A stretch of 64,000 nucleotides of DNA from Paracoccaceae bacterium (lineage in GTDB: Bacteria; Pseudomonadota; Alphaproteobacteria; Rhodobacterales; Rhodobacteraceae). The notes under the pieces are model-generated. The model searched no databases. It worked only from the letters and a program-made list of their open reading frames with translations, and was not told the DNA's origin. Below, piece by piece: positions 29,532 to 50,087 of the stretch. The stretch covers positions 1-64,000 of the forward strand of contig JAGRDY010000014.1 of NCBI GenBank assembly GCA_020446815.1. Direction: 5' to 3'. The translations under genes were made by a program, and so were the position numbers. Position 1 is the first letter of the stretch, and every line of letters starts with the position of its first letter.

Positions 29532-29625
29532 TCCGGGGCATGTCAGGCAACTCTACCCGCCATCCATTTCGCCGACACTCTGCCGACGCGGGGCAGACCG
29601 GCCCGAACCAGGGAAAGAACTCTTC

Positions 29626-32252: not shown

Positions 32253-32263
32253 AAAACGCGATG

Positions 32264-32283
32264 CCTCCGGCGGAGGTATTTTT
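32264..32283 (+). terminator. Short hairpin with T-run after the acyl-CoA dehydrogenase
   Basis: CCTCC-GGC-GGAGG is followed by TATTTTT, 12 bp after the stop. It forms the outer edge of the inverted-repeat element described at 32272-32434. Confidence 0.6.
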
Positions 32284-32434: not shown

Positions 32435-32473
32435 GGGTCCGGGGCGGCGCCCCGGGCGGGCGGGATCTGACGG

Positions 32474-34486: not shown

Positions 34487-35280
34487 TGAAGATGTTGACA
34501 GAAGGGCCGATCCGCACCCGGCGCGAGGGCGCCATCCTGGAGGTGACGCTCGACCGGCCCAAGGCCAATGCGATCGACCTGGCCACCAGCCGGATCATGG
34601 GGCTGACGTTTCGCGATTTTCGCGACGATGACAGCCTGCGGGTCTGCATCCTGCGCGCCGAGGGCGACAAGTTCTTCTGTCCCGGCTGGGATCTGAAGGC
34701 AGCGGCCGGGGGCGATGCGGTCGACGGCGACTACGGGGTGGGGGGCTTCGGCGGCTTGCAGGAACTGCCCAATCTCAACAAGCCGGTGATCGCCGCCATC
34801 AACGGCATCTGCTGCGGCGGCGGGCTGGAACTGGCGCTGTCCTGCGATCTGTTGCTGGCCTCCGACAATGCCAGTTTCGCGCTGCCCGAAATCCGTTCGG
34901 GCACGGTCGCCGATGCCGCCTCGATCAAGCTGCCCAAGCGCATCCCCTATCATGTGGCGATGGATCTGCTGCTTACCGGGCGCTGGTTCGATGCCGAAGA
35001 GGCGCATCGCTGGGGCTTGTTGAAGGAAGTCACCGCCCCGGCCGATCTCTTGGCCAAGGCCTGGGAACTCGCGCGTTTGCTGGAAAGCGGCCCGCCTCTG
35101 GTCTACGCGGCGATCAAGGAAGTGGTGCGCGAAGCCGAGGACATGCGTTTTCAGGATGCCCTGAACCGCATCACCAAACGGCAGATGGTGACGGTCGACC
35201 GGCTCTATTCCTCCGAGGACCAGCTCGAAGGCGCTCGGGCCTTTGCCGAAAAGCGCGCCCCCGTCTGGAAAGGCAGGTAG
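34483..35280 (+). CDS. caiD: CaiD-like enoyl-CoA hydratase (crotonobetainyl-CoA hydratase)
   Basis: The 265-residue crotonase-fold protein shows the oxyanion-hole segment FFCPGWDLKAAA and the block GICCGGGLELALSCDLLLAS with the first catalytic Glu region. SFALPEIRSGTVADAASIKL follows, strongly resembling CaiD. It would hydrate crotonobetainyl-CoA to carnitinyl-CoA. It begins at ATG 34483, overlapping the synthetase stop. An in-frame extension far upstream is a shadow of the synthetase gene. It is the last gene of the operon; a GGGGGC/GCCCCC hairpin follows it before the convergent choline-sulfatase gene. Confidence 0.85.
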   Translation: MMKMLTEGPIRTRREGAILEVTLDRPKANAIDLATSRIMGLTFRDFRDDDSLRVCILRAEGDKFFCPGWDLKAAAGGDAVDGDYGVGGFGGLQELPNLNKPVIAAINGICCGGGLELALSCDLLLASDNASFALPEIRSGTVADAASIKLPKRIPYHVAMDLLLTGRWFDAEEAHRWGLLKEVTAPADLLAKAWELARLLESGPPLVYAAIKEVVREAEDMRFQDALNRITKRQMVTVDRLYSSEDQLEGARAFAEKRAPVWKGR

Positions 35281-35350
35281 GGGGCCTTGCGCCCCCGCAG
35301 GGGGTGTCGCACGCACGCACCGCCACCGCCACCGCCGGCGGCCGGCCCGG

Positions 35351-36859: not shown

Positions 36860-37141
36860 GTGTCGGGTCTTTCTTGCAAATTGAGCGGGCGTCGGTGATG
36901 TCGCGGGTTTTTTCGCAGCGCTCGTATCTTGATCGCGGCTGCGAACAAGCCCTTGGCCCGTGACAAGCAATCTCAATAATCGCGGCGCCGAACAAGCCCA
37001 ATCGGTACCGTTGCCAGCACATTTGCGACATGTTTGCGGCTGACGCTCACGAAGGCCGGCAATGGCTGCGTTTTGCCCTTCAGATGGCGGCCCACATCGC
37101 AAGCAAGACGCGGGCGCGGCGCCGCAAAGCCCCGAAACGCC

Positions 37142-37618
37142 TCAGCTACCCATATATCCCACGAATGAAACCACCTTCCAAAGCCCGTCGCGTTTGCGCA
37201 ACGTGAAGACCGATTGCCAGCGATAGGGCTCCTCGCCGCCGCCCTTAAGCGGCAGGCGCCCATTGAAAACCTTGTGCAGGATCGCCGTGTCATCCGCATA
37301 AAAATCGATGCGCCTGATTTTCGCCCCCGCGAACAACGCCCGCCGCAGTCTTTGCATATCGGCCTTCTGGCGGGTTTCGGCAGACATCCGCAGCCAGCTG
37401 TCGCGATAGGCGGCGAGATTGGCAAAACCCACGCGCCAGTCGGCCGGATCGCGCGAATATCCCGCGTCGATCGCGATAAAGTTCTCGGCGTCGAAATCCC
37501 TGGCGACGGCGTCCCAGTCGGCTGCGATAAAGGCGTCGATATCGACACGCATATGGGCTTCCCAGAGTGCGTGACGGTCTGCGTCCGCGCGGGCGAAGGG
37601 GTTGTCAAAGGGGCGCAT
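37142..37618 (-). CDS. NTF2-like (SnoaL-type) protein
   Basis: The 158-residue protein has the compact alpha+beta cone pattern of NTF2-like proteins: helices near the N-terminus (DAFIAADWDAVARDFDAENF), then strands (KIRRIDFYADDTAILHKVFN and WQSVFTLRKRDGLWKVVSFV). Such proteins bind small molecules or act as isomerases, hydratases or accessory subunits. Its start overlaps the end of the glycosyltransferase gene by 14 bp, so it is the third gene of the minus operon GntR-GT-NTF2. It could bind the amine or glycoside intermediate; that is inference. Confidence 0.75.
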   Translation of the reverse strand: MRPFDNPFARADADRHALWEAHMRVDIDAFIAADWDAVARDFDAENFIAIDAGYSRDPADWRVGFANLAAYRDSWLRMSAETRQKADMQRLRRALFAGAKIRRIDFYADDTAILHKVFNGRLPLKGGGEEPYRWQSVFTLRKRDGLWKVVSFVGYMGS

Positions 37619-38930
37619 TGCCGGTGCCTTTCGGGCGGGTTAGCCGCAGCGCCCGCCGCTGCAGCCCCAAGATCGCGTCGGCGGCTTTCTCGGGGCCGGG
37701 CTGACGGCGCATCCTGGCTGAAATCCCGCAAAGGCGCGCGCGCATTTCGCTATCGGCCAGCAGCGATGCGATATCCTCGCGCAGGCTTTCGGGCGTCCAG
37801 CCGGTACGGTTCACCCATTTGCCCACCCGCGACTGGGCCGCGCGCTGCGCATTGTCGTGCCCATCCCAGCAATAGGGCATTATCAGTGACGGCACCCCGT
37901 GAAACAGCGCTTCGCAAAAGCTGTTGTTGCCGCCATGGTGAATGAACAGATCCGATCGGGCGACCACCGAAGGCTGCGGAAACCAGTCGCCCAGATGCAC
38001 GTTGTCGGGCACCCGGTGATAGCTGTCGATATAGCCGCCCGCATTGACGATGAAGCGGGCCGGAATGGCTTCGAAGGCGGCGATCAGGCGTTGAATGAGT
38101 GCGGTGTCCAATGCGCCGAGCGACCCGAAGCTGGTATAGATGACCGGGCCGGTTTCGGCGGGAAAATGCGGCAGATCGAACGGGCTTTCCCTGCGCACGC
38201 AGCCTTCGAGATAGACGAACCGATCCGCAGGCAACGGGTTGGCCCGGTCATAGCGCACCCCGGCCGGTGCCAGCAACAGGTTCAGATGGGCCGAATTTTC
38301 CAGAAAGATCTCGCCCGGGAGTGCCGGCAGGCCGCATTTCCTGCGAAACGCGTTATAGCGGCGGTGCGTCCTGCGGGTGGCCGCGACATAGGCCTTTCTG
38401 AAGGCGGCACAGGCGGCCGTATCCGCGGGGTCGAGCCCGGAAAGATAGGGCGGCACCGCGGGGTCGGGAATTTCGGTTTCGGCGCAGGACACGACCCGCA
38501 CCCATGGCGGCCCGGCATTGGCGATGGCGGGGAACATGATCACGTTGTCAAGAAGCACGACATCCGGGCGGATCTGGGCCAGAATGTCGCGCAGGCTGTC
38601 TTCGACGGCGATCGCGCTGTCGACGATCGCATCCCATGTGGGCACCACATAGGATTTGATCTGTTCCGACGGGCTGAGATTGAAATTGGGCAGATGGGTG
38701 TTCAGGAATTCTTCCCAATGGCGTTCGCTGCTCGGCGCGCTTGGCGCCGTTGCCGCCGTCAGGTGGTATTCCATGAACCCGTATTCGGCGAAAATCCCGG
38801 TAAAGCCGGGATGGCAGATAAACACCGGGCGGGCGCCTTGCCGGCGCAGTTCCTGGGCGATCCCGACACAATTCAGCGCGGCGCCAAAGCTCGCTTCGGG
38901 AAACAGCGCGATGGTCGGCGACACGTTCAC
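37605..38930 (-). CDS. Family-1 (UGT/MGT-like) glycosyltransferase, copy 1
   Basis: The 441-residue GT-B protein begins TIALFPEASFGAALNCVGIA and has the C-terminal donor-binding motif FIHHGGNNSFCEALFHGVPS, as in UDP-sugar-dependent small-molecule glycosyltransferases such as macrolide GTs. It starts at a GTG that overlaps the regulator's stop by 4 bp. It is clearly paralogous to the plus-strand gene at 43966 (shared PEASFG/PEAAFG start, DVV/IxxDNVIxFPAI core, and HHGGNNSF). No signal or membrane segment is seen. The acceptor is unknown; its operon partners suggest an amine. Confidence 0.85.
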   Translation of the reverse strand: MNVSPTIALFPEASFGAALNCVGIAQELRRQGARPVFICHPGFTGIFAEYGFMEYHLTAATAPSAPSSERHWEEFLNTHLPNFNLSPSEQIKSYVVPTWDAIVDSAIAVEDSLRDILAQIRPDVVLLDNVIMFPAIANAGPPWVRVVSCAETEIPDPAVPPYLSGLDPADTAACAAFRKAYVAATRRTHRRYNAFRRKCGLPALPGEIFLENSAHLNLLLAPAGVRYDRANPLPADRFVYLEGCVRRESPFDLPHFPAETGPVIYTSFGSLGALDTALIQRLIAAFEAIPARFIVNAGGYIDSYHRVPDNVHLGDWFPQPSVVARSDLFIHHGGNNSFCEALFHGVPSLIMPYCWDGHDNAQRAAQSRVGKWVNRTGWTPESLREDIASLLADSEMRARLCGISARMRRQPGPEKAADAILGLQRRALRLTRPKGTGNAPL

Positions 38931-39859
38931 GCGCCTGCCCCCCTCACCAATGGCGAAATGCCGCGATTGGCGGCCGCCGGGCGGCGGATGCTTGACCGGC
39001 GCAGATGCACCGTCATCTGATCCGCGGCCAGATCGAACTGTTTGCGCTCCAGCGCATCGAGAATTTCCAGATGCTCTTCCATCGCCTGCTGCATGCGGAA
39101 CGCCGGAATCGTCTGCCCCTCGCGCGAGGCATGGCGCAACCGGTGATGGGCCATCAGCGCGCTGCGCACGAACCGGTTGCCCGAACCTTCCGCGACAAGT
39201 TCGTGAAAACCGATGTCGAGCCGCCGGAACCCCGCGCCCGAGGCGCGCGTTTCCTCGAGTTCAAGAAATTCATTCATCTGGTTGCGCAGCAGCCCGGCGC
39301 GCTTGCTGTCCAGCGTGAACCCGAGCGATCGCAGCGCCAGCGGTTCCAGCTGAAGGCGCATCTCGAAGCTCTCTTCGGCGGACCTGGGCGAATCGATCAT
39401 CGGGTGGAAGGCCCAGGCGCGGCCGGGCAATTGCGTGACGATTCCGTCCTTCGACAGTACTTTTAGCGAAAATAATACAGTACTTCTGGAAACCTCATAG
39501 CGCCGCGCCAGCGCGCTGACCGATTGGATTTCACCGATCCGGCGTTCGGCGCGATCTGCCAGAATGCGCGTGACGAGCGAGTCTTCCGCGCTTTCCAGCG
39601 CGCCCAGCGCCGCGGTGATCGCGTCGGGCGTATCGAGCGCAAGAAAATATCCCTGCTCTTGCCGCCATTCCAGAATATCCTGAGATTCCAAAAGTCTGAA
39701 TGCGGAACGAATCGGGGTGCGCGACACGCCGCAGGCTTCCGAAAAAGATTGCTCGGGCAAATGGTCGCCGCGCGCCATGCCGCGCTCCAGGGCGATGCCG
39801 GTGATCTGCCGGGCCAGGTCAAGATGGTTCTGATGCGAACTTCGCTTTGTGATTGCCAC
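38927..39859 (-). CDS. GntR/FCD-type regulator with two winged-helix segments
   Basis: From the GTG at 39859 (AGGAG upstream) the product has 310 residues. A GntR-type winged helix occupies about 15-72 (FSEACGVSRTPIRSAFRLLE). A second HTH-like segment lies at about 108-155 (VSALARRYEVSRSTVLFSLK). A helical FCD-type ligand domain follows (ESFEMRLQLEPLALRSLGF, then DIGFHELVAEGSGNRFV and HHRLRH). Extra HTH segments are uncommon in GntR proteins. It heads the minus operon and faces the ABC transporter operon across a control region holding matching inverted repeats, so it likely regulates both. Confidence 0.85.
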   Translation of the reverse strand: MAITKRSSHQNHLDLARQITGIALERGMARGDHLPEQSFSEACGVSRTPIRSAFRLLESQDILEWRQEQGYFLALDTPDAITAALGALESAEDSLVTRILADRAERRIGEIQSVSALARRYEVSRSTVLFSLKVLSKDGIVTQLPGRAWAFHPMIDSPRSAEESFEMRLQLEPLALRSLGFTLDSKRAGLLRNQMNEFLELEETRASGAGFRRLDIGFHELVAEGSGNRFVRSALMAHHRLRHASREGQTIPAFRMQQAMEEHLEILDALERKQFDLAADQMTVHLRRSSIRRPAAANRGISPLVRGAGA

Positions 39860-39876
39860 TTGTCTGGCGCTCCTCT

Positions 39877-39890
39877 GGTATTTTCGTACC
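39877..39890. promoter_or_regulatory. Inverted repeat GGTA-N6-TACC before the regulator gene
   Basis: GGTATTTTCGTACC lies 18 bp upstream of the regulator's start codon. Its core GTATTTT is shared with the half-sites at 39921-39958, so it may be a fourth, autoregulatory site. Confidence 0.45.
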
Positions 39891-39920
39891 GCCGCAAACC
39901 GCCTTGCCGGAAAAGAACAA

Positions 39921-39958
39921 AAAATACAAATTGACGTATTTTTCAATTTAAAAATACT
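39921..39958. promoter_or_regulatory. Three alternating 8-bp half-sites with embedded promoter
   Basis: AAAAATAC (39921-39928), GTATTTTT (39937-39944) and AAAAATAC (39951-39958) are exact copies in alternating orientation, making two overlapping perfect inverted repeats with centres about 15 bp apart. TTGACG (39932-39937) with AATACT (39954-39959), 16-bp spacing, can serve as a sigma-70 promoter for the transporter operon. Binding here would cover the promoter. Confidence 0.6.
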
Positions 39959-40037
39959 GAAAAGGCAACCGGCGCGCAATAGTGCCCGGACCCAACCCCG
40001 GCGCAGCGGTCGGGGCGCCAAACCAGGGAGGAAACCG

Positions 40038-41087
40038 ATGGCGGATAGACTGATGACCACCAGAGCATTGGCGACCGTCGCGATCATGGCGATCGGCGGC
40101 GCGGTGCAGGCAAAGAATCTCGTGGTGTCGAACTGGGACGGCTACATGGCCCCCGACGCCATCGAAAGCTACACCGCCGCCACCGGCAACGGCGCCGAAC
40201 TTGTGCTGCACGCCACTAACGAAGAGATCATGGGAAAGCTGATCGCCTCCAAGGGCAAGGGCTATGACGTGGTGTTCGTGTCCTCGCCCTTTGCCGAGGT
40301 GCTCAACAACCTGGGTCTGGCCGAAACGCTCGATCATGCCAAGCTGCCCAACATCGCCAACCTCTATCCCGAGGCCGGCGCGCTCAAGCACGATCCGGGC
40401 AACAGCTTTTCGGTGCCCTATGCCTGGGGCACCACCGGGCTGTGCTACCGGTCCGACAAGATCGCAGAGACACCCGACAGCTGGATGGATCTTCTGGCCC
40501 CGGCCGCGGACGTGACCGGCAAGACCACCATGCTGGCCACCGACCGCTGGCTGCTTGGCGCGGGGTTTCTGGCCAAGGGCTATTCGGTCAACGAGACCGA
40601 CGAAGCCAAGGTGGCCGAGGTGCGCGACCTGCTGATCGACGCCAAGAAGACCCTGCTGGCCTATGACGACACGACGTTCTACGCCAAGTTGGTCTCCGGC
40701 GAGGCGGTGCTGGTGCACGCCTGGGACGGCTGGTGCAACTACGGGATCGCCGAAAACGGCGACATCAGATATGTCATCCCCAAAGAGGGATCGGATCTGT
40801 GGGTGGACACGATGGTGATCATGAAATCGTCGGAAAACAAGGATGCGGCCTACGCATTCGTGAACTTCATCCTCGATCCCAAGAACCACGGCTGGGCGGC
40901 CGAGAACATTCTTTACAAGGTGCCCAACAAACCCGCGATGGAGGGGCTTTCGGCCGACTTCCTGGACAGCTTCCCGAACATGAAGATCAGCCCGCAGGAA
41001 CTGATCGGCTACGAACAGCTGCGCGACGTGGGCGAAGCCCAGCGCCTCTATTCGCGCACAGTGTCCGAGATCAAGGCCGCGCAATAA
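40038..41087 (+). CDS. Polyamine-type ABC transporter substrate-binding protein
   Basis: The 349-residue protein has a Sec signal peptide (TRALATVAIMAIGGAVQA), then the PotD/PotF-like start LVVSNWDGYMAPDAIESY. Further family blocks are GKGYDVVFVSSPFAEVLNN, FSVPYAWGTTGLCYR and VLVHAWDGWCNYG. It binds a cationic amine in the periplasm for import by the permeases that follow. GGGAGGAAACCG precedes the ATG. A longer frame to 39849 overlaps the control region and is not used. It is the first gene of the plus operon. The exact ligand cannot be read from sequence. Confidence 0.9.
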   Translation: MADRLMTTRALATVAIMAIGGAVQAKNLVVSNWDGYMAPDAIESYTAATGNGAELVLHATNEEIMGKLIASKGKGYDVVFVSSPFAEVLNNLGLAETLDHAKLPNIANLYPEAGALKHDPGNSFSVPYAWGTTGLCYRSDKIAETPDSWMDLLAPAADVTGKTTMLATDRWLLGAGFLAKGYSVNETDEAKVAEVRDLLIDAKKTLLAYDDTTFYAKLVSGEAVLVHAWDGWCNYGIAENGDIRYVIPKEGSDLWVDTMVIMKSSENKDAAYAFVNFILDPKNHGWAAENILYKVPNKPAMEGLSADFLDSFPNMKISPQELIGYEQLRDVGEAQRLYSRTVSEIKAAQ

Positions 41088-41154
41088 GGCCCGGTCCCTG
41101 CTGGTCCGGCGGGCGCGAGGCCTGCCGGGCCGGCAATCCCTCTCACTGACCGCG

Positions 41155-41173
41155 GCCCGCCTTTTCGGCGGGC
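41155..41173 (+). other. Intercistronic hairpin after the binding-protein gene
   Basis: GCCCGCC-TTTTC-GGCGGGC forms a 7-bp stem 67 bp after the stop codon and 23 bp before the permease start. Such structures often keep binding-protein mRNA more abundant than permease mRNA. Confidence 0.5.
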
Positions 41174-41196
41174 GCCACGCAAAGCACCGATTTTCC

Positions 41197-42051
41197 ATGC
41201 AAGATCGCAAACCCGTCTATCTCATGGCTCCGGCGTTGGGCTGGCTGACCGTCTTCATGGTCATCCCATGCCTGCTGATCCTGGCGCTGGCCTTCTTCCG
41301 GCGCGGCATCTACGGCGGCATCGAATACAGCTTTACCCTCGAAAACCTGGCGCTGGTGTTCGACCCGCTCTATGCCGGGATATTCCTCAAATCCGCCTGG
41401 ATCGCCGGGCTGTCGGCGGCCATCGCCGTGATCGTCGGCTATGCCGCAGCCTATGCCATCGCCGCGGCACCCGCGCGGCGCCAGCCGATGCTGCTTTTCT
41501 TCGCGGTACTACCGTTCTGGTCGAACTATCTGGTGCGCACCTATGCCTGGATCGTCCTGCTCAACCGCGAGGGGCTGATCACCGGTGTTGCCCGCCTTTT
41601 GGGCTATGACGCAGAGATGCCGCGCCTGCTTTACAGCGAAGGCGCCGTGGTGATCGGGCTGGTCTACAATTATCTGCCGTTCGTGATCCTTGCCTGCTAC
41701 GCGCCGCTGTCGCGGCTCAATCCCGAAATCGCCGAAGCCTCGCGCGATCTGGGCGCCAGCGGCTGGAAAACCTTCCGCCGGGTCATCCTGCCGATGACGG
41801 TGCCGGGCATCGCCACCGGTTTCGTGTTTGTCTTCGTGCTCTCCATCGGCAATTTCGTGACCCCCGCGCTGCTGGGCGGCGGTCAGTTCCAGATGATCGG
41901 CAATCTGGTCTATGCCCAGTTCCTGACCGCCAACGACTGGCCGTTCGGCGCGGCGCTGTCGATGATCCTGATCGGCATCATGATGGGGCTTCTGACGCTT
42001 CAGACCTTTGCCACGGAACGCGCCTCGGGCGCCCGCCGGGAGGAAAGCTGA
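41197..42051 (+). CDS. ABC transporter permease (PotB/PotH-like)
   Basis: The 284-residue inner-membrane protein has six hydrophobic segments: WLTVFMVIPCLLILALAFF first, then IAGLSAAIAVIVGYAAAYA, and others. The EAA loop EASRDLGASGWKTFRRVILP is the contact for the ATPase. It pairs with the next permease to form the channel for the polyamine-type importer. It lies after an intercistronic hairpin, 110 bp past the binding-protein gene. Confidence 0.92.
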   Translation: MQDRKPVYLMAPALGWLTVFMVIPCLLILALAFFRRGIYGGIEYSFTLENLALVFDPLYAGIFLKSAWIAGLSAAIAVIVGYAAAYAIAAAPARRQPMLLFFAVLPFWSNYLVRTYAWIVLLNREGLITGVARLLGYDAEMPRLLYSEGAVVIGLVYNYLPFVILACYAPLSRLNPEIAEASRDLGASGWKTFRRVILPMTVPGIATGFVFVFVLSIGNFVTPALLGGGQFQMIGNLVYAQFLTANDWPFGAALSMILIGIMMGLLTLQTFATERASGARREES

Positions 42052-42052
42052 A

Positions 42053-42844
42053 ATGGCGACACCTGCCGCGCCGCGCCTGATGCTGATGATCCTGTCGGCG
42101 GTCTTCGCCTTCCTCTACATTCCGATCTCGGTGCTGGTGGCGCTGTCGTTCAACGAAAGCGGCCTGCCCACCGCCTGGACCGGGTTTTCCACCAGATGGT
42201 ATGGCGAATTGATGCATAATTCAGACATCACCTCGGCGGCGCTGAACACGCTGATCGTGGCGGTCGTGTCGACGCTGCTCGCCACGTTGCTGGGAACGCT
42301 TCTGGCCATCGGGGTCGAGATCCGCCGCCGCAAGGGGCGCTTTCTGGAAACCATCATCTTTGCGCCGATGATCATTCCCGACATCGTGCTTGCCATCGCG
42401 CTGCTCAGCTTCTTTTCGCTGCTCGACGTGACGATGGGCCTGCATACGGTGATCCTGAGCCATGTGGTGTTCAATCTCGCCTTTGTCTGTTCGGTCGTGC
42501 GCGCGCGTCTCAAGACCTTCGACTGGTCCATCGTCGAGGCTTCGACCGATCTGGGCGCATCGACCGCGACGACGCTGCGGCGGGTGGTGGTGCCGGTCAT
42601 GCTGCCGGCCATCGTGGCGGGGGCGCTTCTGGCCTTCACCCTGTCCGTCGACGAATTCATCATCGCATTCTTCACCGCCGGCGCCGGGCGCGATTCGATC
42701 ACCCTGCCGATGCAGATATTTGCCATGATCCGTTTTGGCGTGACCCCCGAAATCAACGCCCTCGCAACGCTTGTGATGGCCGTTTCGATCCTCGCGCTGA
42801 CCCTGTCGCAGCGGCTGAACCGCGGAGGTCTTCCGGGACAATGA
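42053..42844 (+). CDS. ABC transporter permease (PotC/PotI-like)
   Basis: The 263-residue protein starts at ATG 42053, after AGGAAAGCTGAA, one base past the preceding stop. It has six hydrophobic segments, and the EAA loop is EASTDLGASTATTLRRVVVP. FNESGLPTAWTGFSTRWY near the N-terminus is typical of PotC-type permeases. Its stop overlaps the ATPase start (ATGA), so subunit synthesis is coupled. Confidence 0.92.
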   Translation: MATPAAPRLMLMILSAVFAFLYIPISVLVALSFNESGLPTAWTGFSTRWYGELMHNSDITSAALNTLIVAVVSTLLATLLGTLLAIGVEIRRRKGRFLETIIFAPMIIPDIVLAIALLSFFSLLDVTMGLHTVILSHVVFNLAFVCSVVRARLKTFDWSIVEASTDLGASTATTLRRVVVPVMLPAIVAGALLAFTLSVDEFIIAFFTAGAGRDSITLPMQIFAMIRFGVTPEINALATLVMAVSILALTLSQRLNRGGLPGQ

Positions 42845-43905
42845 GCCAGACCTTCCTGTCACTGCAAAACATCGAAAAGCGTTTCGGCTCGGTACGCGCC
42901 GTCGATGGGCTGAGCCTCGATATCCGGCAAAACGAATTCTTTGCCCTTCTGGGCGCGTCGGGCAGCGGAAAGACCACGCTGTTGCGGCTGCTTGCCGGTT
43001 TCGAAACCCCGACCGGGGGCAGCATCCTGCTGGGCGGCAAAGACATATCTCGGGTTCCGCCGAACCTGCGCCAGATCAACCTGATGTTCCAGTCCTATGC
43101 CTTGTTCCCGCATATGACCGTGTTTCAGAACATCGCCTATGGGCTTGAAATGGAAAGGGCCGGCAGGGCCGAGATCCGCCGGCGCGTCGGAGAAATGCTG
43201 GAGATCATCCAGCTGCCCCACCTGGCCAAGCGCAAGCCCGATCAGCTTTCCGGCGGCCAGCGCCAGCGCGTGGCGCTCGGCCGGGCGCTGGTCAAGCGGC
43301 CCCATCTGCTCTTGCTCGACGAGCCACTGGGCGCGCTCGACAAGAAGCTGCGCGGCGACATGCAGCTCGAACTCAAGCGCATTCAGCACGAATTCGGCAT
43401 CACCTTCATTGTCGTCACCCATGATCAGGAAGAAGCGCTCGTCATGGCCGACCGGGTGGCCATCCTGAAAGACGGCAAGTTGCTGCAATGCGCCAGCCCG
43501 CATGATATCTATGAACATCCCAACAGCCGGTATGCCGCGGATTTCATCGGCGTGATGAATTTCCTGCCCGGCATCCTGCAACGCGACGGCGTGCGCGCCC
43601 TCGACGGCAGCCTGATCCAGGCGGGCCGCCCCGCGGGTGCCCGCGACGGTGATAAGGTGGTGGTCGCGGTGCGGCCCGAACGCCTGCACATCGGTGCGCG
43701 GAAGGACGGCAACGGCCTGAAGGGGCGGGTGGTGGCGATGGCCTATCAGGGGCTCGACCTGCAACTGCACCTGAAATCGGATCTGTCGCCCGATCCCGTC
43801 CTGGTGCGCCTGACCGCCCATGACGCCGAGAGCAATCCGCTGAGCGAGGGCGACGAGGTGAGCCTCGGCTGGGCGGCCAGGGACACCCGCATCTTCATGG
43901 CCTGA
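42841..43905 (+). CDS. ABC transporter ATP-binding protein (PotA-like)
   Basis: The 354-residue ATPase carries Walker A GASGSGKT, the Q-loop (NLMFQSYALFPHMTVFQNIA), the signature LSGGQRQRVALGRALVK, Walker B LLLLDEPLGALD, and H-loop VVTHDQEEALVM. A C-terminal TOBE domain follows from about 240. It energises the two permeases. The hairpin CCGCC-GGCA-GGCGG at 43931-43944 lies between it and the second glycosyltransferase gene. Confidence 0.94.
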   Translation: MSQTFLSLQNIEKRFGSVRAVDGLSLDIRQNEFFALLGASGSGKTTLLRLLAGFETPTGGSILLGGKDISRVPPNLRQINLMFQSYALFPHMTVFQNIAYGLEMERAGRAEIRRRVGEMLEIIQLPHLAKRKPDQLSGGQRQRVALGRALVKRPHLLLLDEPLGALDKKLRGDMQLELKRIQHEFGITFIVVTHDQEEALVMADRVAILKDGKLLQCASPHDIYEHPNSRYAADFIGVMNFLPGILQRDGVRALDGSLIQAGRPAGARDGDKVVVAVRPERLHIGARKDGNGLKGRVVAMAYQGLDLQLHLKSDLSPDPVLVRLTAHDAESNPLSEGDEVSLGWAARDTRIFMA

Positions 43906-43965
43906 CCGGCTGCGATACAAACGAGAGCTTCCGCCGGCAGGCGGCACAATACAGGGAGTAAGACA

Positions 43966-45252
43966 ATGGCTCGGAAAACTTTCGCATTCTTCCCCGAAGC
44001 CGCCTTCGGCCCGGCGCTGAACTCGGTCGGGATCGCCCAGGCGGTCGAACGCATGGGCCACAAGGCGGTGTTCCTGTCGGACCCCGGTTTTGTCGATGTC
44101 TACAAGGGCTACGGGTTCGAAGCTCATCCGGTGAACCTCTCCGCGCCGATGCCGCCCGAACAGATGGCCAAGTTCTGGGAAGACTTCATCAACGGCCACA
44201 TCCCCAACTTCCGCAAGGCCCCGATCGACCAGATCGACAATTATGTGAAGGAATGCTGGGAGGCGATCGTCGACAGCGCCAAATGGGCGCAAAAGGATCT
44301 GCCGGCCATTCTGGCCGCGATCCGGCCCGACGTGATTTCGGTCGACAACGTGATCCTGTTCCCGGCGATCAAACAATACGGCGTTCCCTGGGTGCGGATC
44401 ATTTCCTGTTCGGAAAACGAGATCGAGGACGAAGCCATTCCGCCGCATCTGTCGGGCATGTCGGAAAACGACACCGCGGGACATGCCGCGTTTCGCGCCA
44501 GGTTCAACGCGGTGATCAAGCCCATCCATGACGATTTCAACGCGTTTCTGACCGAAAACAACGAAGATCCCTATCCGCTGGGGCAGTTCTTCGAAGCGTC
44601 GCCCTTCCTGAACCTGCTGCTTTACCCCGAACAGGTGAAATACCGGCGCGCCAGACCGCTGGATCCCGCGCGCTACCAGTATCTGGAAGGCTGCGTGCGT
44701 CAGGACGACGCCTACACGGTGCCGGCCTTCGCAAAGAACAACGACGGCCCGCTGCTTTACATTTCGTTCGGCTCGCTGGGCGCGGGCGACACCGAACTGC
44801 TCAAACGCCTGATCGGGCTGATCGGCAAGTCGCGCTACCGCGCGCTGGTCAATGTGGGCGACTACAAGGATGCCTACACCGACATCCCCGGCAACGTGAT
44901 CATCGACAGCTGGTTTCCACAACCGTCGGTCATCCCGCAGGTCGATGCGGTGATCCACCACGGGGGCAACAACTCGTTCACCGAATGCCTCTTTTTCGGC
45001 AAGCCCGCGATCATCATGTCCTATGTCTGGGACGGCCACGACAACGCCATGCGCGTTCAGGAAACCGGCCACGGATTCCGGTCCGAGCGCTACGACTGGA
45101 CCGATGAAGAGCTGATCGGGAAGATCGAGGCCTGTCTGAATGACGAGACCATCGCGGCAAGGCTCAAGGAAACCTCGGCCCACATGCAATCGCAGAACGG
45201 GCAGGAAAAAGCGGCAAAGCTGCTGGTCCGGGTCGCGGAGCAGGGGGCATGA
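43966..45252 (+). CDS. Family-1 (UGT/MGT-like) glycosyltransferase, copy 2
   Basis: The 428-residue GT-B protein begins TFAFFPEAAFGPALNSVGIA and has the donor-binding motif VIHHGGNNSFTECLFFGKPA near residue 325. It is a paralogue of the minus-strand copy at 37605, and both lack secretion signals. Blocks YLEGCVRQDD and SWFPQPSVIPQVD are shared in modified form. A good ribosome site (GGGAGTAAGAC) precedes the ATG. It sits directly after the importer genes and overlaps the first cupin start by 4 bp. Glycosylation of an imported amine, or deglycosylation in reverse, is possible; the acceptor is unknown. Confidence 0.85.
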   Translation: MARKTFAFFPEAAFGPALNSVGIAQAVERMGHKAVFLSDPGFVDVYKGYGFEAHPVNLSAPMPPEQMAKFWEDFINGHIPNFRKAPIDQIDNYVKECWEAIVDSAKWAQKDLPAILAAIRPDVISVDNVILFPAIKQYGVPWVRIISCSENEIEDEAIPPHLSGMSENDTAGHAAFRARFNAVIKPIHDDFNAFLTENNEDPYPLGQFFEASPFLNLLLYPEQVKYRRARPLDPARYQYLEGCVRQDDAYTVPAFAKNNDGPLLYISFGSLGAGDTELLKRLIGLIGKSRYRALVNVGDYKDAYTDIPGNVIIDSWFPQPSVIPQVDAVIHHGGNNSFTECLFFGKPAIIMSYVWDGHDNAMRVQETGHGFRSERYDWTDEELIGKIEACLNDETIAARLKETSAHMQSQNGQEKAAKLLVRVAEQGA

Positions 45253-45611
45253 CCAACCTTGCGTCATCCGCGCCTCACATTCACAAGGCCAGCACCTATG
45301 ACGATCTGGTGGACTGGGGCCTGCAGCCCGACATGATCAGCGGGCAGTCCCATTCCATGGGGCGGCTTCTGCACAAGGGGCCGGGCAACAGCCCCGAAAC
45401 CGGCATCTGGGTCTGCACCCCCGGCACATGGCGCATCTCGGTCCCGCGCGACGAATTCTGCCATTTCGTCGCAGGCCGCGTCATCTATCGCCGCGACGGC
45501 TCGGACGAGGTGATCGAGGCGGCGGCAGGCACCTGTGTGTTGTTCCCCGCCGGCTGGCAGGGCACGGCAGAGATCACCGAAACCCTGCGCAACATCTACA
45601 TGCTTGTCTGA
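45249..45611 (+). CDS. Small cupin protein, copy 1
   Basis: The 120-residue protein is a single-domain cupin of the cupin_3/DUF861 type related to (S)-ureidoglycine aminohydrolase domains. The core runs GIWVCTPGTWRISVPRDEFC then HFVAGRVIYRRDG, and ends at VLFPAGWQGTAEI. It closely matches the second cupin 14 bp downstream, which shares LLHKGP/VLHKGP, CTPG-W and RDEFCHF. It starts at an ATGA overlap with the glycosyltransferase stop. Function unknown; possible metal-binding enzyme or sensor of the pathway intermediate. Confidence 0.82.
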   Translation: MTNLASSAPHIHKASTYDDLVDWGLQPDMISGQSHSMGRLLHKGPGNSPETGIWVCTPGTWRISVPRDEFCHFVAGRVIYRRDGSDEVIEAAAGTCVLFPAGWQGTAEITETLRNIYMLV

Positions 45612-45624
45612 AAAGGAGCGCGCC

Positions 45625-45969
45625 ATGAAAGCCGCCTGTTTCCGCAACCCGCTCGCGATCACCGATACGGTGGACTGGGGTGTGATCCCGACCATGATCG
45701 AGGGCGAAAGCCGCACCTCGGGCAAGGTTCTGCACAAGGGCCCCGATGGCCAAAGCGAATGCGGGCTGTGGATCTGCACCCCCGGAAAGTGGGAATGCCA
45801 CGTCACCCGTGACGAATTCTGCCACTTTCTGGAAGGCCGCTGCACCTATGTGCACCAGAGCGGTGAGGTGATCGAGATCACCCCCGACACCGCCGCCTTT
45901 TTCCCGCAGGACTGGAAAGGCACCTGCACGGTCCATGAAACGGTCAAGAAAGTCTACATGATCCGATGA
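45625..45969 (+). CDS. Small cupin protein, copy 2
   Basis: The 114-residue protein repeats the pattern of its upstream neighbour: DWGVIPTMIEGESRTSGKVL, CTPGKWECHVTRDEFC, HFLEGRCTYVHQSG and FFPQDWKGTCTVHE. The ATG at 45625 follows AAAAGGAGCGCGCC, so a longer frame from 45535 is rejected. The two copies may form a heteromer, or one may have lost activity. It overlaps the kinase gene start by 4 bp. Confidence 0.82.
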   Translation: MKAACFRNPLAITDTVDWGVIPTMIEGESRTSGKVLHKGPDGQSECGLWICTPGKWECHVTRDEFCHFLEGRCTYVHQSGEVIEITPDTAAFFPQDWKGTCTVHETVKKVYMIR

Positions 45970-47033
45970 CCGACACGTCGCCGACAGTCGCGGGCGGCTA
46001 CCGCCTGTCTGATGCCGCCACCCGGTTTCTGGATGAAAACGGGTTGACGGGGGCTGTTCTGAATGCGCTCGTGGCCGATGCTTCGCCGCGCCGGTATTTT
46101 CGCGTCGCGGGCCGGGGTGTGCTGTTGATGGATGATCGGCAGGATCCGGCGGGCTTTGCCGCCTATCTGCGGATTTCCCGTCACCTGACCGGCCTGGGCC
46201 TGTCGGCGCCGCGGGTGCTGGCGGTCATGCCCGGCGAATGCCTGGCCCTGATCGAGGATTTCGGCGACGACACCTATGCCCGCTGTCTGGCGCGCGGCGC
46301 CGATGAAGGCGCGCTCTACAAGCTCGCTGTCGATGCGCTCTTGAAGTTGCATCGCGACCCGGGCGGGGGGCGCATCGCCCGTCCGGCCTATGACATGGAT
46401 GTGCATCTCGACGAACTGTCGATCTTTTCGCGCTGGTTCGCGCCCGCCGTGTCGCCGGGGCTGGATGTCAATGGTTTCGACGTCCGCTTCCGCGCCCTGT
46501 GGCGCGCGGCGCTGGCCCCGGTGGCCGGGCGCCACGATACGCTGGTTCTGCGGGATTTCCACATCGACAACCTGATGCTGCTCGGGGATCGCCAGGCCGA
46601 GGCGCGCTGCGGGCTGCTGGATTTCCAGGATGCCATCCTGGGCCCCTGCGAATACGATCTGGCGTCGCTGTTGCAGGATGCGCGCCGTGATCTGGCCGAA
46701 GGTCTCGAAGCGCGGCTTCTGCGCTATTATTGCGACAACGCGCCGGCCGCGCAGGGGGGCGCCAGGGCAATCCGCGAACGCTATCACCTGCTGGCCGCGC
46801 AACGTCACGCGCGCATCCTCGGCGTCTTTGTGCGGCTGTGCCGGCGCGACGCCAAGCCGCGCTATCTGGCCTATCTTCCGCGTGTGCTGCGCCAGTTCCG
46901 CACCGCACTTGCCGATGCCGGGCTGGGCGATGTCGCGGCCTTCCTCGATCAGGCGCTGCCCGGCTGGGTCGCGACCGCCGGCGCGCTCCATGAAACCCTT
47001 CGCCCCACCACCACTGGAACTTCCGATGACTGA
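45966..47033 (+). CDS. AmgK-like phosphotransferase (aminoglycoside phosphotransferase family)
   Basis: The 355-residue kinase has the APH-type catalytic loop LVLRDFHIDNLMLL (HxDxxN) near residue 198 and the metal motif GLLDFQDAILGPCEYDLASL. These closely resemble AmgK, the anomeric N-acetylmuramate/GlcNAc 1-kinase. In AmgK operons the gene is near murU or tsaE; here it is between cupins and an aldehyde dehydrogenase, so a different hydroxylated substrate is likely. It starts with an ATGA overlap and its end overlaps the next gene by 8 bp. Confidence 0.82.
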   Translation: MTDTSPTVAGGYRLSDAATRFLDENGLTGAVLNALVADASPRRYFRVAGRGVLLMDDRQDPAGFAAYLRISRHLTGLGLSAPRVLAVMPGECLALIEDFGDDTYARCLARGADEGALYKLAVDALLKLHRDPGGGRIARPAYDMDVHLDELSIFSRWFAPAVSPGLDVNGFDVRFRALWRAALAPVAGRHDTLVLRDFHIDNLMLLGDRQAEARCGLLDFQDAILGPCEYDLASLLQDARRDLAEGLEARLLRYYCDNAPAAQGGARAIRERYHLLAAQRHARILGVFVRLCRRDAKPRYLAYLPRVLRQFRTALADAGLGDVAAFLDQALPGWVATAGALHETLRPTTTGTSDD

Positions 47034-48531
47034 GACACCTTCCTGTTCGTTCTATCTGGCGCCGGAATTTCTTCCGGCAAACGGGCCGCGCCACGAGGTC
47101 ATCGACCCGGCGACGCTTGAAACGGTCGGCCATTATCGCGAACCGACCGCCGATCAGGTCGACGAGATGCTCGATCGCGTCAATGAAGCCCAGAAAAGAT
47201 GGGCCGCGACGGATTGCAAGACCCGCGCGGGCCTGCTGCATCGTGTCGCCGACGCGATGGAAAGGGCCGACATGACCGAAATCGCCATCATGATGTCGCG
47301 CGAGGTGGGCAAGCCTTACCCCGAAGCCATCGGCGAAATCGCCAACATCCCGCCGGTGTTTCGCTACTTTGCCGAAATGGCCCGCGATGATGCGGGCCGG
47401 ATCGCCGGGCCGATGCAGCCCGGTTCGTTCCAGTATCAGACCTATGCGCCGCATGGTGTGTCGGTGCATATCGTGCCCTATAACTTTCCGCTCATCCTCG
47501 GGTGCTGGACCATCGCCGCGTCGCTGGCGGCGGGCAACGGCGCCGTGTTGAAGGCGTCGCCCGTCGGGACGATCTGCACGCTGATGTTCATGCGCTTCTT
47601 TGACGCGCTGCCGGCGGGTCTGATCGCCTGTGTGGGCGGCGGCGCCGAATTGGGCGCGCGGCTGGTCGACAGCCCCAGAACCCATGCCATCGCCTTTACC
47701 GGCTCGGCCGAAGTGGGCCGCCGCATCGCCATGCAAAGCGCGGCCCGGATGAAGCCCTGCGTGATCGAAGGCGGCGGCAGCGACCCTCTGGTGGTGTCCC
47801 GACATGCCGATGTCAATGTGGCCGCCGCGGCCGCCGTGACCGCCGCTTTCCTGCAATCGGGCCAGGTCTGCACCTCGACCGAACGGATCTATGTCGAGGA
47901 TGCGGTCCATGACGCATTCGTCGCGGCGCTGATCGCGCGCACCCGCCGGCTGCGCCTCGGCAACGGGCTGGGGATTGCCGAAATCGGCCCCCTGGTGTCC
48001 GAAGCCGCCCGTGACCGGGTTCTGGGCTGGATCGACAAGGCCCGCGCCGCCGGGGCCACCATCGCCCTTGGCGGCGGGGTGCCCGCCGGTCAGCCGCAAG
48101 GCTGGTTCGTGGAGCCCACCGTCGTTACCGATGTGACCCAGGACATGGGGCTGTTCGAACACGAGATTTTCGGCCCGGTCGTCGCTGTCCTGCGCGTCGG
48201 TTCGTTCGACGAAGGCCTTGCACTTGCCAATCAATCCGCCTTCGGGCTCGGCGCGGCGGTCTTTACCCGCGACCTCGGCGAGGCGCACCGCGCGGTCGAT
48301 ACGCTCGAGGCGGGGATGATCTGGGTCAACAACCCGCTGGTCGACAACGATGCCCTGCCATTTGGCGGGGTTAAGAAATCCGGGCTCGGTCGCGCGCTTG
48401 GCCGCGCCGGTCTCGATGCCTTCCGAAAACCCAAGATGGTGATCCTCGACCCCGTCGCGAAAGAGGCCGACTGGTGGTATCCCTACCCGGACGACTGGTT
48501 TCTCGATGCCGGCGGGCGCAAGCACGTCTGA
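47026..48531 (+). CDS. NAD(P)-dependent aldehyde dehydrogenase
   Basis: The 501-residue enzyme has the ALDH core: APHGVSVHIVPYNFPLILG, IAFTGSAEVGRRIA (Rossmann), the catalytic Glu in VIEGGGSDP, the nucleophile in LQSGQVCTSTERIYV, and EIFGPVVAVLRVG. ATG 47026 lies at the end of the kinase gene (8-bp overlap) and starts MTETPSCSFYLAPEFLPANG. It would oxidise the aldehyde released from the amine by the FAD oxidase downstream. The ELGGKSP-type motif reads EGGGSDP, an atypical variant. Confidence 0.9.
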   Translation: MTETPSCSFYLAPEFLPANGPRHEVIDPATLETVGHYREPTADQVDEMLDRVNEAQKRWAATDCKTRAGLLHRVADAMERADMTEIAIMMSREVGKPYPEAIGEIANIPPVFRYFAEMARDDAGRIAGPMQPGSFQYQTYAPHGVSVHIVPYNFPLILGCWTIAASLAAGNGAVLKASPVGTICTLMFMRFFDALPAGLIACVGGGAELGARLVDSPRTHAIAFTGSAEVGRRIAMQSAARMKPCVIEGGGSDPLVVSRHADVNVAAAAAVTAAFLQSGQVCTSTERIYVEDAVHDAFVAALIARTRRLRLGNGLGIAEIGPLVSEAARDRVLGWIDKARAAGATIALGGGVPAGQPQGWFVEPTVVTDVTQDMGLFEHEIFGPVVAVLRVGSFDEGLALANQSAFGLGAAVFTRDLGEAHRAVDTLEAGMIWVNNPLVDNDALPFGGVKKSGLGRALGRAGLDAFRKPKMVILDPVAKEADWWYPYPDDWFLDAGGRKHV

Positions 48532-48555
48532 TCGGTTCGTGCCGGGGATGATCTC

Positions 48556-48699
48556 ATGAAAACAGAACCTTATGGTGAGAGTGCCTGTCGCGCGGCGGTG
48601 CCGGGCATTGATCCGCAAGGCGGGCGTGCAGCACCGGACCGGGCGCCGAAGCCGCGCAAGGCCCGAAAGCCCCGCAAGGCCCGGGGCGCCCGGCGATGA
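48556..48699 (+). CDS. Possible 47-residue basic peptide with PRKAR repeats
   Basis: An ATG at 48556 opens a 48-codon frame ending in a TGA that overlaps the start of the FAD oxidase gene (ATGA at 48696). The product has a near-tandem basic tail PKPRKARKPRKARGARR. GGGGATGATCTC precedes the ATG, a moderate ribosome site. It may be a real coupling peptide or a leader; the repeat-rich DNA could also be a chance frame. Confidence 0.35.
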   Translation: MKTEPYGESACRAAVPGIDPQGGRAAPDRAPKPRKARKPRKARGARR

Positions 48700-50087
48700 C
48701 GCGGCTTTCGCATCGCTTCGCAACGACCAGATTCGCGCCCTTCTGGCCCGAAACCGTCGCCCGACGGCCCGAATTGCCACCCCTGTCGGGCAGCCTTCGC
48801 TGTGATCTGGCGATCATCGGCGCCGGTTTCACGGGGCTCTGGTCGGCGCTGAAGGCCCGCGAACGCCACCCCGGCGCCCGTATCGTCGTGCTGGACGCGC
48901 GCCGGCTGGCCGATGCCGCCAGCGGGCGCAGCGGCGGCTTTGCCGCGCCGTCGATCTCGCACGGGGTGACGAATGCGGCCGGCCGCTGGCCGGACGAGGC
49001 GCAAGATCTGGTCCGCCTGGGGCGCGAAAACCTCGATGAAATGGAGGCCGACATCCGCGCCTACGGTATCGACGCCGAATTCGAGCGTACCGGCAAGCTT
49101 AACGTGGCGCAGACCCGCTGGCAGATCGAGGGCCTGCACGCGATGCAGGCGAGCTATGCGCGTTTCGGGGTCGAAACCGCCATCCTGAAGCGCCCCGAAC
49201 TTGCCGCCCGCCTCGATTCCGCACGCTATCCGGTCGGGCTTTTCGAGGAAAACTATGCCTTTGTGAACCCGGCCAGGCTGGTCCACGGTCTGGCACGGGC
49301 CTGTCTGGCGCAAGGCATCGCCATTCATGAAAACAGCAAGGTGACCGCAATTCGCAACGACGGCCCCGACCTGCGGCTTGTCCTTAACGAAGGCGCGCTT
49401 CATGCGCGCCGGGCGATCCTGGCCACCAATGCCGATCTGCCGCTGCTGGCCCGCCTGCGCCGCGCCATCGTTCCGATCTATGACTATTCCATCATGACCG
49501 AGCCGCTGTCAGAGGCGCAGCTGGCCGCGATCGGCTGGCGCGGCCGCCACGGTGTGGCCGATTGCGGCAACCAGTTCCACTATTCGCGCAAGACCGCCGA
49601 CAACCGCATTCTGTGGGGCGGCTATGATGCGATCTATCACTTCGGCGCAAGACGCGATGCGGAACTTCTGCACCGCAACGAAACCTACGCCAAGCTTGAA
49701 GAAACCTTCACGGCAACCTTTCCAAGCCTGTCGGAGGTGCGGTTCAGCCACGCCTGGGGCGGCGTTATCGACACTTCGGCGCGGCTGACCTTTTTTAGCG
49801 GCACCGCGTTCGGCGGGCGGCTGGCCTATGCGCTCGGCTTCACCGGGCAAGGCGTCACGGCCACCAGATTCGCCGCGCTTTCGATGCTCGATCTGCTGGA
49901 CGGGGTGCAAACCGAACGCACCGGCCTGCGGATGATCCGCAGCCGGCCCGTGCCGTTTCCCCCCGAACCCCTGCGCAGCCTCGCGATCGGCTGGGCGCAG
50001 GCCGATCTGGCGCGCGAGGACCGCACCGGCCATCGCTCGCTGATGCTGCGCCTGATGGACAGGCTGGGTATCGGGTTCGGCTCGTAA
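48696..50087 (+). CDS. FAD-dependent amine oxidase/dehydrogenase (DAO family)
   Basis: The 463-residue flavoprotein has the dinucleotide motif LAIIGAGFTGLWSALKARER near residue 35 and the second block ASGRSGGFAAPSISHG. HAWGGVIDTSARLTFFSG and GFTGQGVTATRFA near the end are typical of PuuB-like gamma-glutamylputrescine oxidases and related amine oxidases. It would oxidise a C-N bond to give an aldehyde for the ALDH upstream. Start ATG overlaps the stop of the small frame at 48556. It is the last gene of the plus operon. Confidence 0.88.
   Translation: MTRLSHRFATTRFAPFWPETVARRPELPPLSGSLRCDLAIIGAGFTGLWSALKARERHPGARIVVLDARRLADAASGRSGGFAAPSISHGVTNAAGRWPDEAQDLVRLGRENLDEMEADIRAYGIDAEFERTGKLNVAQTRWQIEGLHAMQASYARFGVETAILKRPELAARLDSARYPVGLFEENYAFVNPARLVHGLARACLAQGIAIHENSKVTAIRNDGPDLRLVLNEGALHARRAILATNADLPLLARLRRAIVPIYDYSIMTEPLSEAQLAAIGWRGRHGVADCGNQFHYSRKTADNRILWGGYDAIYHFGARRDAELLHRNETYAKLEETFTATFPSLSEVRFSHAWGGVIDTSARLTFFSGTAFGGRLAYALGFTGQGVTATRFAALSMLDLLDGVQTERTGLRMIRSRPVPFPPEPLRSLAIGWAQADLAREDRTGHRSLMLRLMDRLGIGFGS

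Follow-up and report, generated by a model that had tools for sequence, protein, structure and literature searches.

A conserved putative amine-uptake gene cluster with glycosyltransferases that lack the catalytic histidine: a candidate sugar-conjugating amine pathway

Introduction

In the textbook scheme, a small amine is linked to glutamate so that it can be oxidized safely, and the Puu pathway of E. coli (PuuABCDE), which gamma-glutamylates putrescine, is the described system closest to the gene cluster reported here. The cluster occupies positions 37142-50087 of a stretch of DNA from Paracoccaceae bacterium (GenBank assembly GCA_020446815.1, contig JAGRDY010000014.1). We call the whole stretch the window; it comprises bases 1-64,000 of a contig of 181,636 bases, and the genome measures 3.47 Mb. 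Like Puu, the cluster appears to combine conjugation-type logic with a flavin adenine dinucleotide (FAD)-dependent oxidase and an aldehyde dehydrogenase (ALDH). However, none of its proteins matches PuuA (gamma-glutamylputrescine synthetase) or PuuD (gamma-glutamyl-GABA hydrolase), and its glycosyltransferases (GTs), cupins and sugar-type kinase are foreign to Puu. The cluster seems to work like a conjugative amine pathway, but by gene content it does not belong to Puu.

The individual components also have described relatives. The solute-binding protein (SBP) of the importer is of the PotD/PotF family and keeps W, D and Y motifs that would bind one amine end, whereas its scores fall below the NCBIfam cut-offs and the residues around the other amine end are changed. 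The two GTs share the GT-B fold, an HGGNN-type donor site and the partner Asp with the mite enzymes UGT203A2 and UGT202A2 and with bacterial macrolide-type UGTs (YjiC, OleD). Unlike these enzymes, they carry Pro (GT1b) or Ala/Ser (GT1a) in place of the catalytic His and DG in place of DQ, and they lie in an amine-uptake operon. The kinase is of the same sugar-kinase family as AmgK of the AmgK-MurU peptidoglycan sugar salvage pathway, and a GlmU-like nucleotidyltransferase is present in 12 related loci. However, the kinase is below the AmgK cut-off and linked to amine genes, and a separate AmgK homologue lies elsewhere in the genome. The cupins may share the bicupin fold of the (S)-ureidoglycine aminohydrolase AllE (YlbA), and 1sfn, 1sef and 1sq4 are among their structural matches. 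They differ in giving no profile match to AllE and in usually being two separate genes.

The importer, the GT-B enzymes lacking the histidine, the cupins and ALDH form a conserved unit around one promoter-operator, and relatives of the cluster carry predicted enzymes of nucleoside diphosphate (NDP)-sugar supply in the same operon. Our preferred reading, to which we give a probability of roughly 0.36, is that the cluster is a regulon for the uptake and breakdown of a polyamine-like primary amine, wherein an activated sugar would take the place that glutamate has in Puu. We know of no described amine pathway with a sugar-tagging step. Likewise, no description of such a cluster was found by title or abstract start among the matches listed from the Creative Commons-licensed PMC literature.

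Conservation and arrangement of the cluster

A search for GT1b at E<=1e-40 in 292 order-level genomes, the window's own included, found the gene in 13, all of which also have GT1a. The other 12 genomes all retain GT1a-GntR on one side and SBP-permease-permease-ATPase-GT1b-cupA-cupB-ALDH on the other. We also compared 80 named loci of alpha- and gammaproteobacteria, including Phaeobacter, Shimia, Ruegeria, Mesorhizobium, Ancylobacter, Amorphus, Halomonas, Aidingimonas and Marinomonas. They are the best 80 among 400 stretches that a GT1b search retrieved, and because they were picked by GT1b match, the co-occurrence counts lean to close relatives. GT1a, GntR, SBP, two permeases, ATPase, GT1b, ALDH and at least one cupin are present together in 68 of the 80 loci, and both cupins in 64. 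The remaining 12 are mostly short or cut contigs, and the genuinely different ones are L056 and L063. The grouping is far from chance. Co-occurrence elsewhere, on which an earlier note made from this sequence alone had staked its reading, is therefore what we find.

The kinase and the FAD oxidase are outside the core, with the kinase in 32 of 80 loci and FAD in 28. The view that GTs, cupins and kinase belong to one unit thus holds for the kinase only where it is present. Within the 65 long loci (all that reach 17 kb and contain an SBP, with L056 and L063 added), the kinase is present in 24 of the 26 that have FAD. In the gene-by-gene counts, both for the 80 and for the long loci, matches below 38% identity were ignored, except for cupins. 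Genes in the relatives were called by a codon-score caller, which makes their starts approximate. Median identity is 81% for GT1b, about as high as for the permeases, compared with 59% for ALDH and 61% for FAD, figures that selection by GT1b biases.

In wider draws, 13 of the 385 genomes sampled from the class and 8 of the 398 sampled from the phylum contain GT1b-like genes. The earlier note proposed to check whether the two GT1 families co-occur with the cupin pair across genomes; both GTs are present in all 13 order-level genomes, but 10 of the 13 class genomes with a relative carry just a single GT. Four loci of one family (L161-L164) lack GT1a but retain the importer, a GT, ALDH, a DAO-type flavoprotein and both cupins. 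In L155-L159 and L165, a single GT keeps only its cupin in unrelated surroundings, and the neighbors of these distant single-copy loci gave no clue to a pathway. From the single-GT genomes, GT and cupin are therefore the part that cannot be spared and GT1a an addition in the window's group, and the smallest recurring unit is one GT with a cupin. L155-L159 and L165 are alphaproteobacteria of other families, so GT-cupin may have a more general role. A metagenome-assembled genome of Halieaceae keeps GT1b, FAD, a fused bicupin, the kinase (38%) and ALDH together, has neither GT1a nor an ABC importer within the 21 kb fetched, and carries a sugar-type MFS transporter.

As judged from a list of open reading frames (ORFs) and from family searches, the window's cluster consists of two divergent operons around one conserved promoter-operator. 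Operon 1 (- strand) encodes a GntR/FCD regulator, GT1a and a small ORF. Operon 2 (+ strand) encodes a PotD-like SBP, two permeases, an ATPase, GT1b, cupA, cupB, an APH/AmgK-like kinase, ALDH and a DAO-type flavoprotein. The genes named in the earlier note are all present as ORFs, and ten of the cluster proteins were searched against Pfam and NCBIfam. The features are as follows.

37142..37618, - strand: small ORF, "NTF2-like" in the earlier note; overlaps the end of GT1a by 14 bp; sporadic
37605..38930, - strand: GT1a, GT-B glycosyltransferase (UGT-like); Pfam EryCIII-like_C/UDPGT; Ala/Ser at the UGT catalytic His position
38927..39859, - strand: GntR/FCD regulator; two GntR stretches, with helix-turn-helix matches at 155-189 and FCD at 207-331
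39923..39943, + strand: element AATACAnnTTGACGTAyTTTT; putative operator overlapping a -35/-10-like promoter
40038..41087, + strand: PotD/PotF-type binding protein; NCBIfam PotD 130 bits (cut-off 582); PotD/PotF matches in the PDB
41197..42051, + strand: ABC permease 1; ORF with a homologue in 75 of 80 loci, identified by position and homologues
42053..42844, + strand: ABC permease 2; ORF, in 76 of 80 loci
42841..43905, + strand: ABC ATPase; ORF, in 77 of 80 loci; overlaps permease 2 by 4 bp
43966..45252, + strand: GT1b, GT-B glycosyltransferase; Pro at the UGT catalytic His position, Glu11, donor DQ changed to DG
45249..45611, + strand: cupA, EutQ-like/DUF861 cupin; Pfam Cupin_3; overlaps GT1b by 4 bp
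45625..45969, + strand: cupB, second DUF861 cupin; Pfam Cupin_3
45966..47033, + strand: AmgK-like kinase of the APH fold; Pfam APH; NCBIfam AmgK 208 bits (cut-off 500)
47026..48531, + strand: aldehyde dehydrogenase; Pfam Aldedh 464 bits; core, in 75 of 80 loci
48696..50087, + strand: DAO-family FAD oxidoreductase; 30% identity to E. coli PuuB; in 28 of 80 loci

The start of permease 2 was picked to fit the 263-residue median of its cluster. In L151 and L152, a named permease lies at the permease 1 position and a named ATP-binding protein at the ATPase position. The earlier note described the operons as divergent and tightly coupled, and this is confirmed by overlaps of 4-8 bp at several joints, including 4 bp between cupB and the kinase and 8 bp between the kinase and ALDH, with one promoter-operator between the operons.

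Promoter-operator and regulator

The region between the regulator and SBP genes contains AATACAnnTTGACGTATTTTT in the window, with AATACT further on, and we read the two as a putative operator over a -35/-10 pair. The core TTGACGT is present in 70 of 73 testable loci (missing from L071, L096 and L105), and the reversed word, used as a control, in none. The string TTGACGTA occurs in 64 of the 73 regions and the left half TACAnnTTGACGT, with TACA, in only 28. Eight of 81 regions were not countable (L056, L061, L063, L064, L068, L069, L091 and L108), of which L068 was excluded by hand because its regulator sits on the other strand. With up to three mismatches allowed, the full element has a single match in the 3.47-Mb genome, and it has none in 100 shuffles of the window.

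The gap between the regulator and GT1a is -8 to +17 bp in all 74 loci that gave both genes. A single site most likely controls both operons, GT1a included. Co-regulation of the GT and cupin genes with the importer, another point on which the earlier note had rested its case, is thus supported as far as a conserved element between the operons can indicate. The regulator itself (38927-39859) seemingly has two winged-helix stretches ahead of FCD, the second of them helix-turn-helix-like and lying between GntR and FCD.

Glycosyltransferases without the catalytic histidine

In an alignment of 182 GT rows, two of which are unreadable at the N-loop, the position of the UGT catalytic His is occupied by Pro in all 101 readable GT1b-like rows, including those from archaea. 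In GT1a it holds Ala (70) or Ser (9) in 79 of 79. Other residues are strictly kept: Glu11, in the same loop as the lost His, is invariant in 180 of 180 readable rows, and Asp127 (the partner Asp), Asp356 and His332 in all 182. The donor DQ is replaced by DG in 181 of 182 rows, and the nucleotide-binding HGGNN is present in every row read. Both GTs lack the N-terminal His of the catalytic His-Asp dyad and keep the GT-B fold and the C-terminal NDP-sugar motif. In a tree of 66 of the 182 rows, after thinning at 84% identity, GT1a forms one side of a branch with 100/100 support.

This pattern, the loss of the UGT catalytic His from both GTs with an invariant Glu nearby, appears to be new and is compatible with N-glycosylation. 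According to PMC8558338, the H19Q change in UGT72B1 leaves half of N-glucosylation and lowers the kcat of O-glucosylation to 1/300. The plant enzymes UGT76C2/3, which have Cys in place of the His, prefer N-glycosylation, and the wild types have weak O-activity, according to PMC12246196. N-glycosylation of an amine by the cluster's GTs would be compatible with these residues and favored by the genetic context.

By sequence and fold, the nearest proteins are spider-mite UGT203A2 and UGT202A2, and for GT1b mite UGTs are also the nearest among solved structures. The top fold match of the GT1b model (pLDDT 87) is mite Tetur04g02350 (UGT203A2), with a Foldseek TMq of 0.89-0.90, and the mite homologue retains the catalytic His, in FGH. 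Mite UGTs have been reported to be of bacterial origin. The GT1b group keeps the mite-UGT fold but not the His, and may help to place the bacterial donor. A macrolide-resistance GT was considered and rejected, as the NCBIfam macrolide models score below their cut-offs. In L153 (10001-10992), on a Pseudomonas plasmid, a GT relative lies in three pieces beside type VI secretion genes.

Cupins

A cupin directly follows GT1b in 77 of 78 readable loci, the window included, and 54 of these 77 show a 4-bp overlap between the two genes. Only L056 differs, with FAD in that position. Six loci have a fusion of cupA with cupB. A model of the fused bicupin (pLDDT 89) best matches the uncharacterized DUF861 bicupin 3myx (TMq 0.74), and the next matches by E-value are MncA and oxalate decarboxylases, the latter with TMq near 0.5. 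Lower in the ranking are 1sfn (rank 5, TMq 0.62), 1sef (rank 16, TMq 0.60) and 1sq4 (rank 30, TMq 0.67), which are grouped as YlbA-like in PMC2684688. AllE is annotated as a ureidoglycine aminohydrolase. That the cupins hydrolyze an aminal is a guess with slight structural support. A reading of the cupins as AllE orthologues was set aside, since the profile comparison, with shallow profiles, was negative.

Importer and Puu-like partners

The SBP falls well below the curated NCBIfam cut-offs, with 130 versus 582 bits for PotD and 118 versus 636 bits for PotF. The W, D and Y motifs that it keeps are presumably amine-binding residues, as in PotD. The PotD segment TDDAREVF aligns with LATDRWLL of the SBP, in which TDRWL is invariant in 74 sequences and the Trp stands at what we take to be the place of PotD Glu171. 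The SBP ligand is probably an amine, and perhaps not spermidine. The amine-type importer and the FAD/ALDH catabolic logic that the earlier note proposed are supported. Ordinary PotABCD function with use of spermidine was rejected, as the curated cut-offs are unmet and the linkage to GTs and cupins would be unexplained. The flanks of L053, L075, L080, L083 and L151 hold a second Pot-type ABC importer beside the cluster.

The FAD protein of the window is 30% identical to PuuB (E 9e-35), in the same DAO superfamily, and a PDB sequence search with it gave a single weak match. A PuuA-like gene is present in 29 of the 80 loci. In 28 loci, by title chiefly Mesorhizobium, PuuA-like and PuuB-like genes follow GT1a; in a tested example they are 36% identical to PuuA and 41% to PuuB. 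In 9 of these 28 loci, the ends of GT1a and the PuuA-like gene share 4 bp, and the next joint does likewise in 13. This apparent coupling of GT1a to Puu-like genes is new. Among the long loci, 23 of 65 have the PuuA-like gene, 22 of these 23 also have the PuuB-like gene, and in none of the 65 do the PuuA-like gene and the kinase occur together.

Kinase and sugar-supply genes

The kinase catalytic motifs D-F-H, N-L-M and Q-D are invariant in 32 sequences. The second AmgK homologue elsewhere in the genome scores 224 bits for its main stretch, also under the cut-off. Of the 27 long loci that have the kinase, 12 also have a GlmU-like nucleotidyltransferase, and no locus has the nucleotidyltransferase without the kinase. 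Its gene shares 4 bp with FAD in 7 of the 12 loci and 4 bp with ALDH2 in 6 of the 11 where ALDH2 is present there. The protein matches the uridylyltransferase half of GlmU, with the 250-residue L041 example scoring 292 bits, below the full-length cut-off. AmgK and MurU are a known pair that converts free sugar into UDP-sugar, and murU was itself discovered as a GlmU-like gene adjoining amgK, according to PMC5371407.

Natrialba magadii and Natronorubrum aibiense each have a plasmid with a single GT (59% and 58% identity, respectively), a cupin and ALDH. Next in order come a ROK kinase, closest to glucokinases, and a phosphohexomutase, closest to archaeal GlmM. Both plasmids have genes for an FAD oxidoreductase, an IclR regulator, an aminotransferase and an ABC importer nearby. 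The importer is annotated as spermidine/putrescine type in Natronorubrum, and as a solute-binding protein only in Natrialba. Two further genes on the Natrialba plasmid encode a protein of the glutamine-synthetase family (32% to PuuA) and a type 1 glutamine amidotransferase. In L149 (17609-21233), from Natrialba magadii, histidine-degradation genes flank the GT-cupin block.

The ROK kinase and phosphohexomutase would reach the same sugar-1-phosphate by another road, and both gene sets seem to lead towards sugar-1-phosphate and NDP-sugar. The joining of an AmgK-like kinase by a GlmU-like nucleotidyltransferase, and of ROK and phosphohexomutase to the archaeal GT-cupin genes, appears not to have been described. 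The earlier note's suggestion that the kinase phosphorylates the amine is not upheld. The accessory genes suggest that its substrate is a sugar, because it is nearest AmgK, has a GlmU-like partner in 12 loci and is replaced on the archaeal plasmids by ROK and phosphohexomutase. A kinase acting on the amine, of the choline- or hydroxylysine-kinase type, was rejected since family and partners are sugar-type.

Proposed pathway and alternatives

We infer the amine substrate and all of the reactions from the parts, their linkage, the shared element, the loss of the histidine and the sugar-type neighbors. In the proposed pathway, the Pot-type importer would take up the amine, and GT1a and GT1b would move a sugar from an NDP-sugar onto its amino nitrogen. 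The FAD enzyme would oxidize the carbon beside the sugar-bearing nitrogen to give an aldehyde and a glycosylamine, and the cupin pair would hydrolyze the glycosylamine to sugar and ammonia. These two steps are the least certain. ALDH would oxidize the aldehyde. The AmgK-like kinase and the GlmU-like nucleotidyltransferase would return the free sugar towards NDP-sugar, a role that the ROK kinase and phosphohexomutase might have in haloarchaea. The sugar would serve as a recyclable handle.

A broader proposal is that bacteria and haloarchaea share a form of conjugative amine degradation whose recyclable carrier is an NDP-sugar, not glutamate or coenzyme A. GTs lacking the His would N-glycosylate the amine, a flavoenzyme and a bicupin would release aldehyde, ammonia and sugar, and two different recharging gene sets would have been recruited to the same task. 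We hold this view tentatively, with slightly less confidence than the preferred reading. If it is true, sugar as a carrier would be a new principle in nitrogen catabolism, with the pathway occurring in soil, plant-associated and marine bacteria and some haloarchaea. A group of DUF861 cupins would gain a function, as would a group of His-less UGTs that profile libraries place only near macrolide glycosyltransferases and that could be a source of N-glycosyltransferases for aliphatic amines. Since a single promoter-operator apparently governs all of the genes, the proposal can be tested directly.

Several observations weigh against the sugar-carrier pathway. Loss of the His is not diagnostic of N-glycosylation. 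According to PMC12246196, changing the Cys of UGT76C2/3 to Ala lowered N-glycosylation and raised O-glycosylation, and Ala is the residue that GT1a has. The N-specific ginkgo enzyme GbNGT1, in turn, has His at the catalytic place. In GbNGT1, activity was lost when a Glu three residues before that His, at a position other than that of Glu11, was replaced by Gly, but on one substrate it rose about 40-fold with Ala there. Glu11 therefore says little by analogy. The best fold match of the bicupin is 3myx, followed by MncA and oxalate decarboxylases; comparison of the cupins with AllE gave an hhalign probability below 1% (shallow profiles against a single sequence). GT1a is missing from most of the class genomes that have a relative. 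Among the 65 long loci, 38 are without the kinase and 53 without the nucleotidyltransferase. The latter is missing from the window's cluster too, and the genome search for one gave only a 47% match in a 506-codon frame that is probably GlmU. Because these genes are missing from so many loci and, in part, from the window, sugar recharging would be optional at best. Taxonomy confounds the mutual exclusion of PuuA-like gene and kinase. The archaeal evidence comes from only two plasmids with GT-cupin, and their ROK kinase and mutase score below curated cut-offs.

The GTs and cupins might instead have a role off the main path. The amine might be broken down by an ordinary oxidase and ALDH or by gamma-glutamylation, with GT-cupin serving only to capture or repair, in glycoside form, a reactive intermediate (an amino-aldehyde or a cyclic imine). 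The oxidase varies between loci (FAD, FAD2 or none nearby) with GT-cupin-ALDH constant, PuuA/PuuB-like genes lie beside GT1a in 28 loci, and the mite UGTs matched in fold are detoxification enzymes. However, GT1b is conserved about as well as the permeases and better than ALDH and FAD, a ranking that the GT1b-based selection biases, and sugar-supply genes in the operon suggest heavy use of sugar. We regard such protection as unlikely, though a serious contender. The AmgK-like kinase and GlmU-like nucleotidyltransferase might instead activate the sugar of an imported sugar-bearing or amino-sugar amine, with the GTs working in salvage or in reverse and FAD/ALDH degrading the amine part. The altered SBP pocket (TDDAREVF in PotD versus LATDRWLL) and the MFS sugar-type transporter of the Halieaceae locus agree with this idea, which we nevertheless find rather improbable: the PuuA/PuuB-like partners and the Pot-type importer indicate simple amines, and most long loci lack the kinase.

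The GTs could also be inactive NDP-sugar-binding sensors of sugar status that gate an ordinary amine pathway, as the catalytic His is gone from both paralogues while HGGNN is kept. The invariance of Asp127, Asp356 and His332 (182 of 182) and of Glu11 (180 of 180) speaks for turnover, as do the cupin partner and the sugar-supply genes, and we think a sensing role improbable. Finally, APH, FAD, the small ORF and the neighbors vary between loci, and distant GT-cupin pairs lie in unrelated surroundings, as might be expected of a patchwork operon in which unrelated functions hitch-hike. With the whole core in 68 of 80 loci, a shared promoter-operator and GT-cupin-ALDH recurring on two archaeal plasmids, this explanation is hardly credible.

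Neighboring genes

The small ORF at 37142-37618 was called NTF2-like in the earlier note. The ORF exists, but the label is that reader's own, as the protein has no Pfam or NCBIfam match. It is present in 3 of the 80 loci, at 63-69% identity, and was rejected as a core part on that count.

Judged by eye, the region beside the cluster (28590-36904) holds what looks like a catabolic set of the carnitine/choline type: BKACE-like, 3-hydroxyacyl-CoA dehydrogenase/thioesterase, acyl-CoA dehydrogenase, CoA ligase, enoyl-CoA hydratase and sulfatase genes. The enoyl-CoA hydratase and the sulfatase have no match of at least 38% identity in the 80 loci, although enoyl-CoA hydratase matches at 28-31% identity do occur in a few of them.

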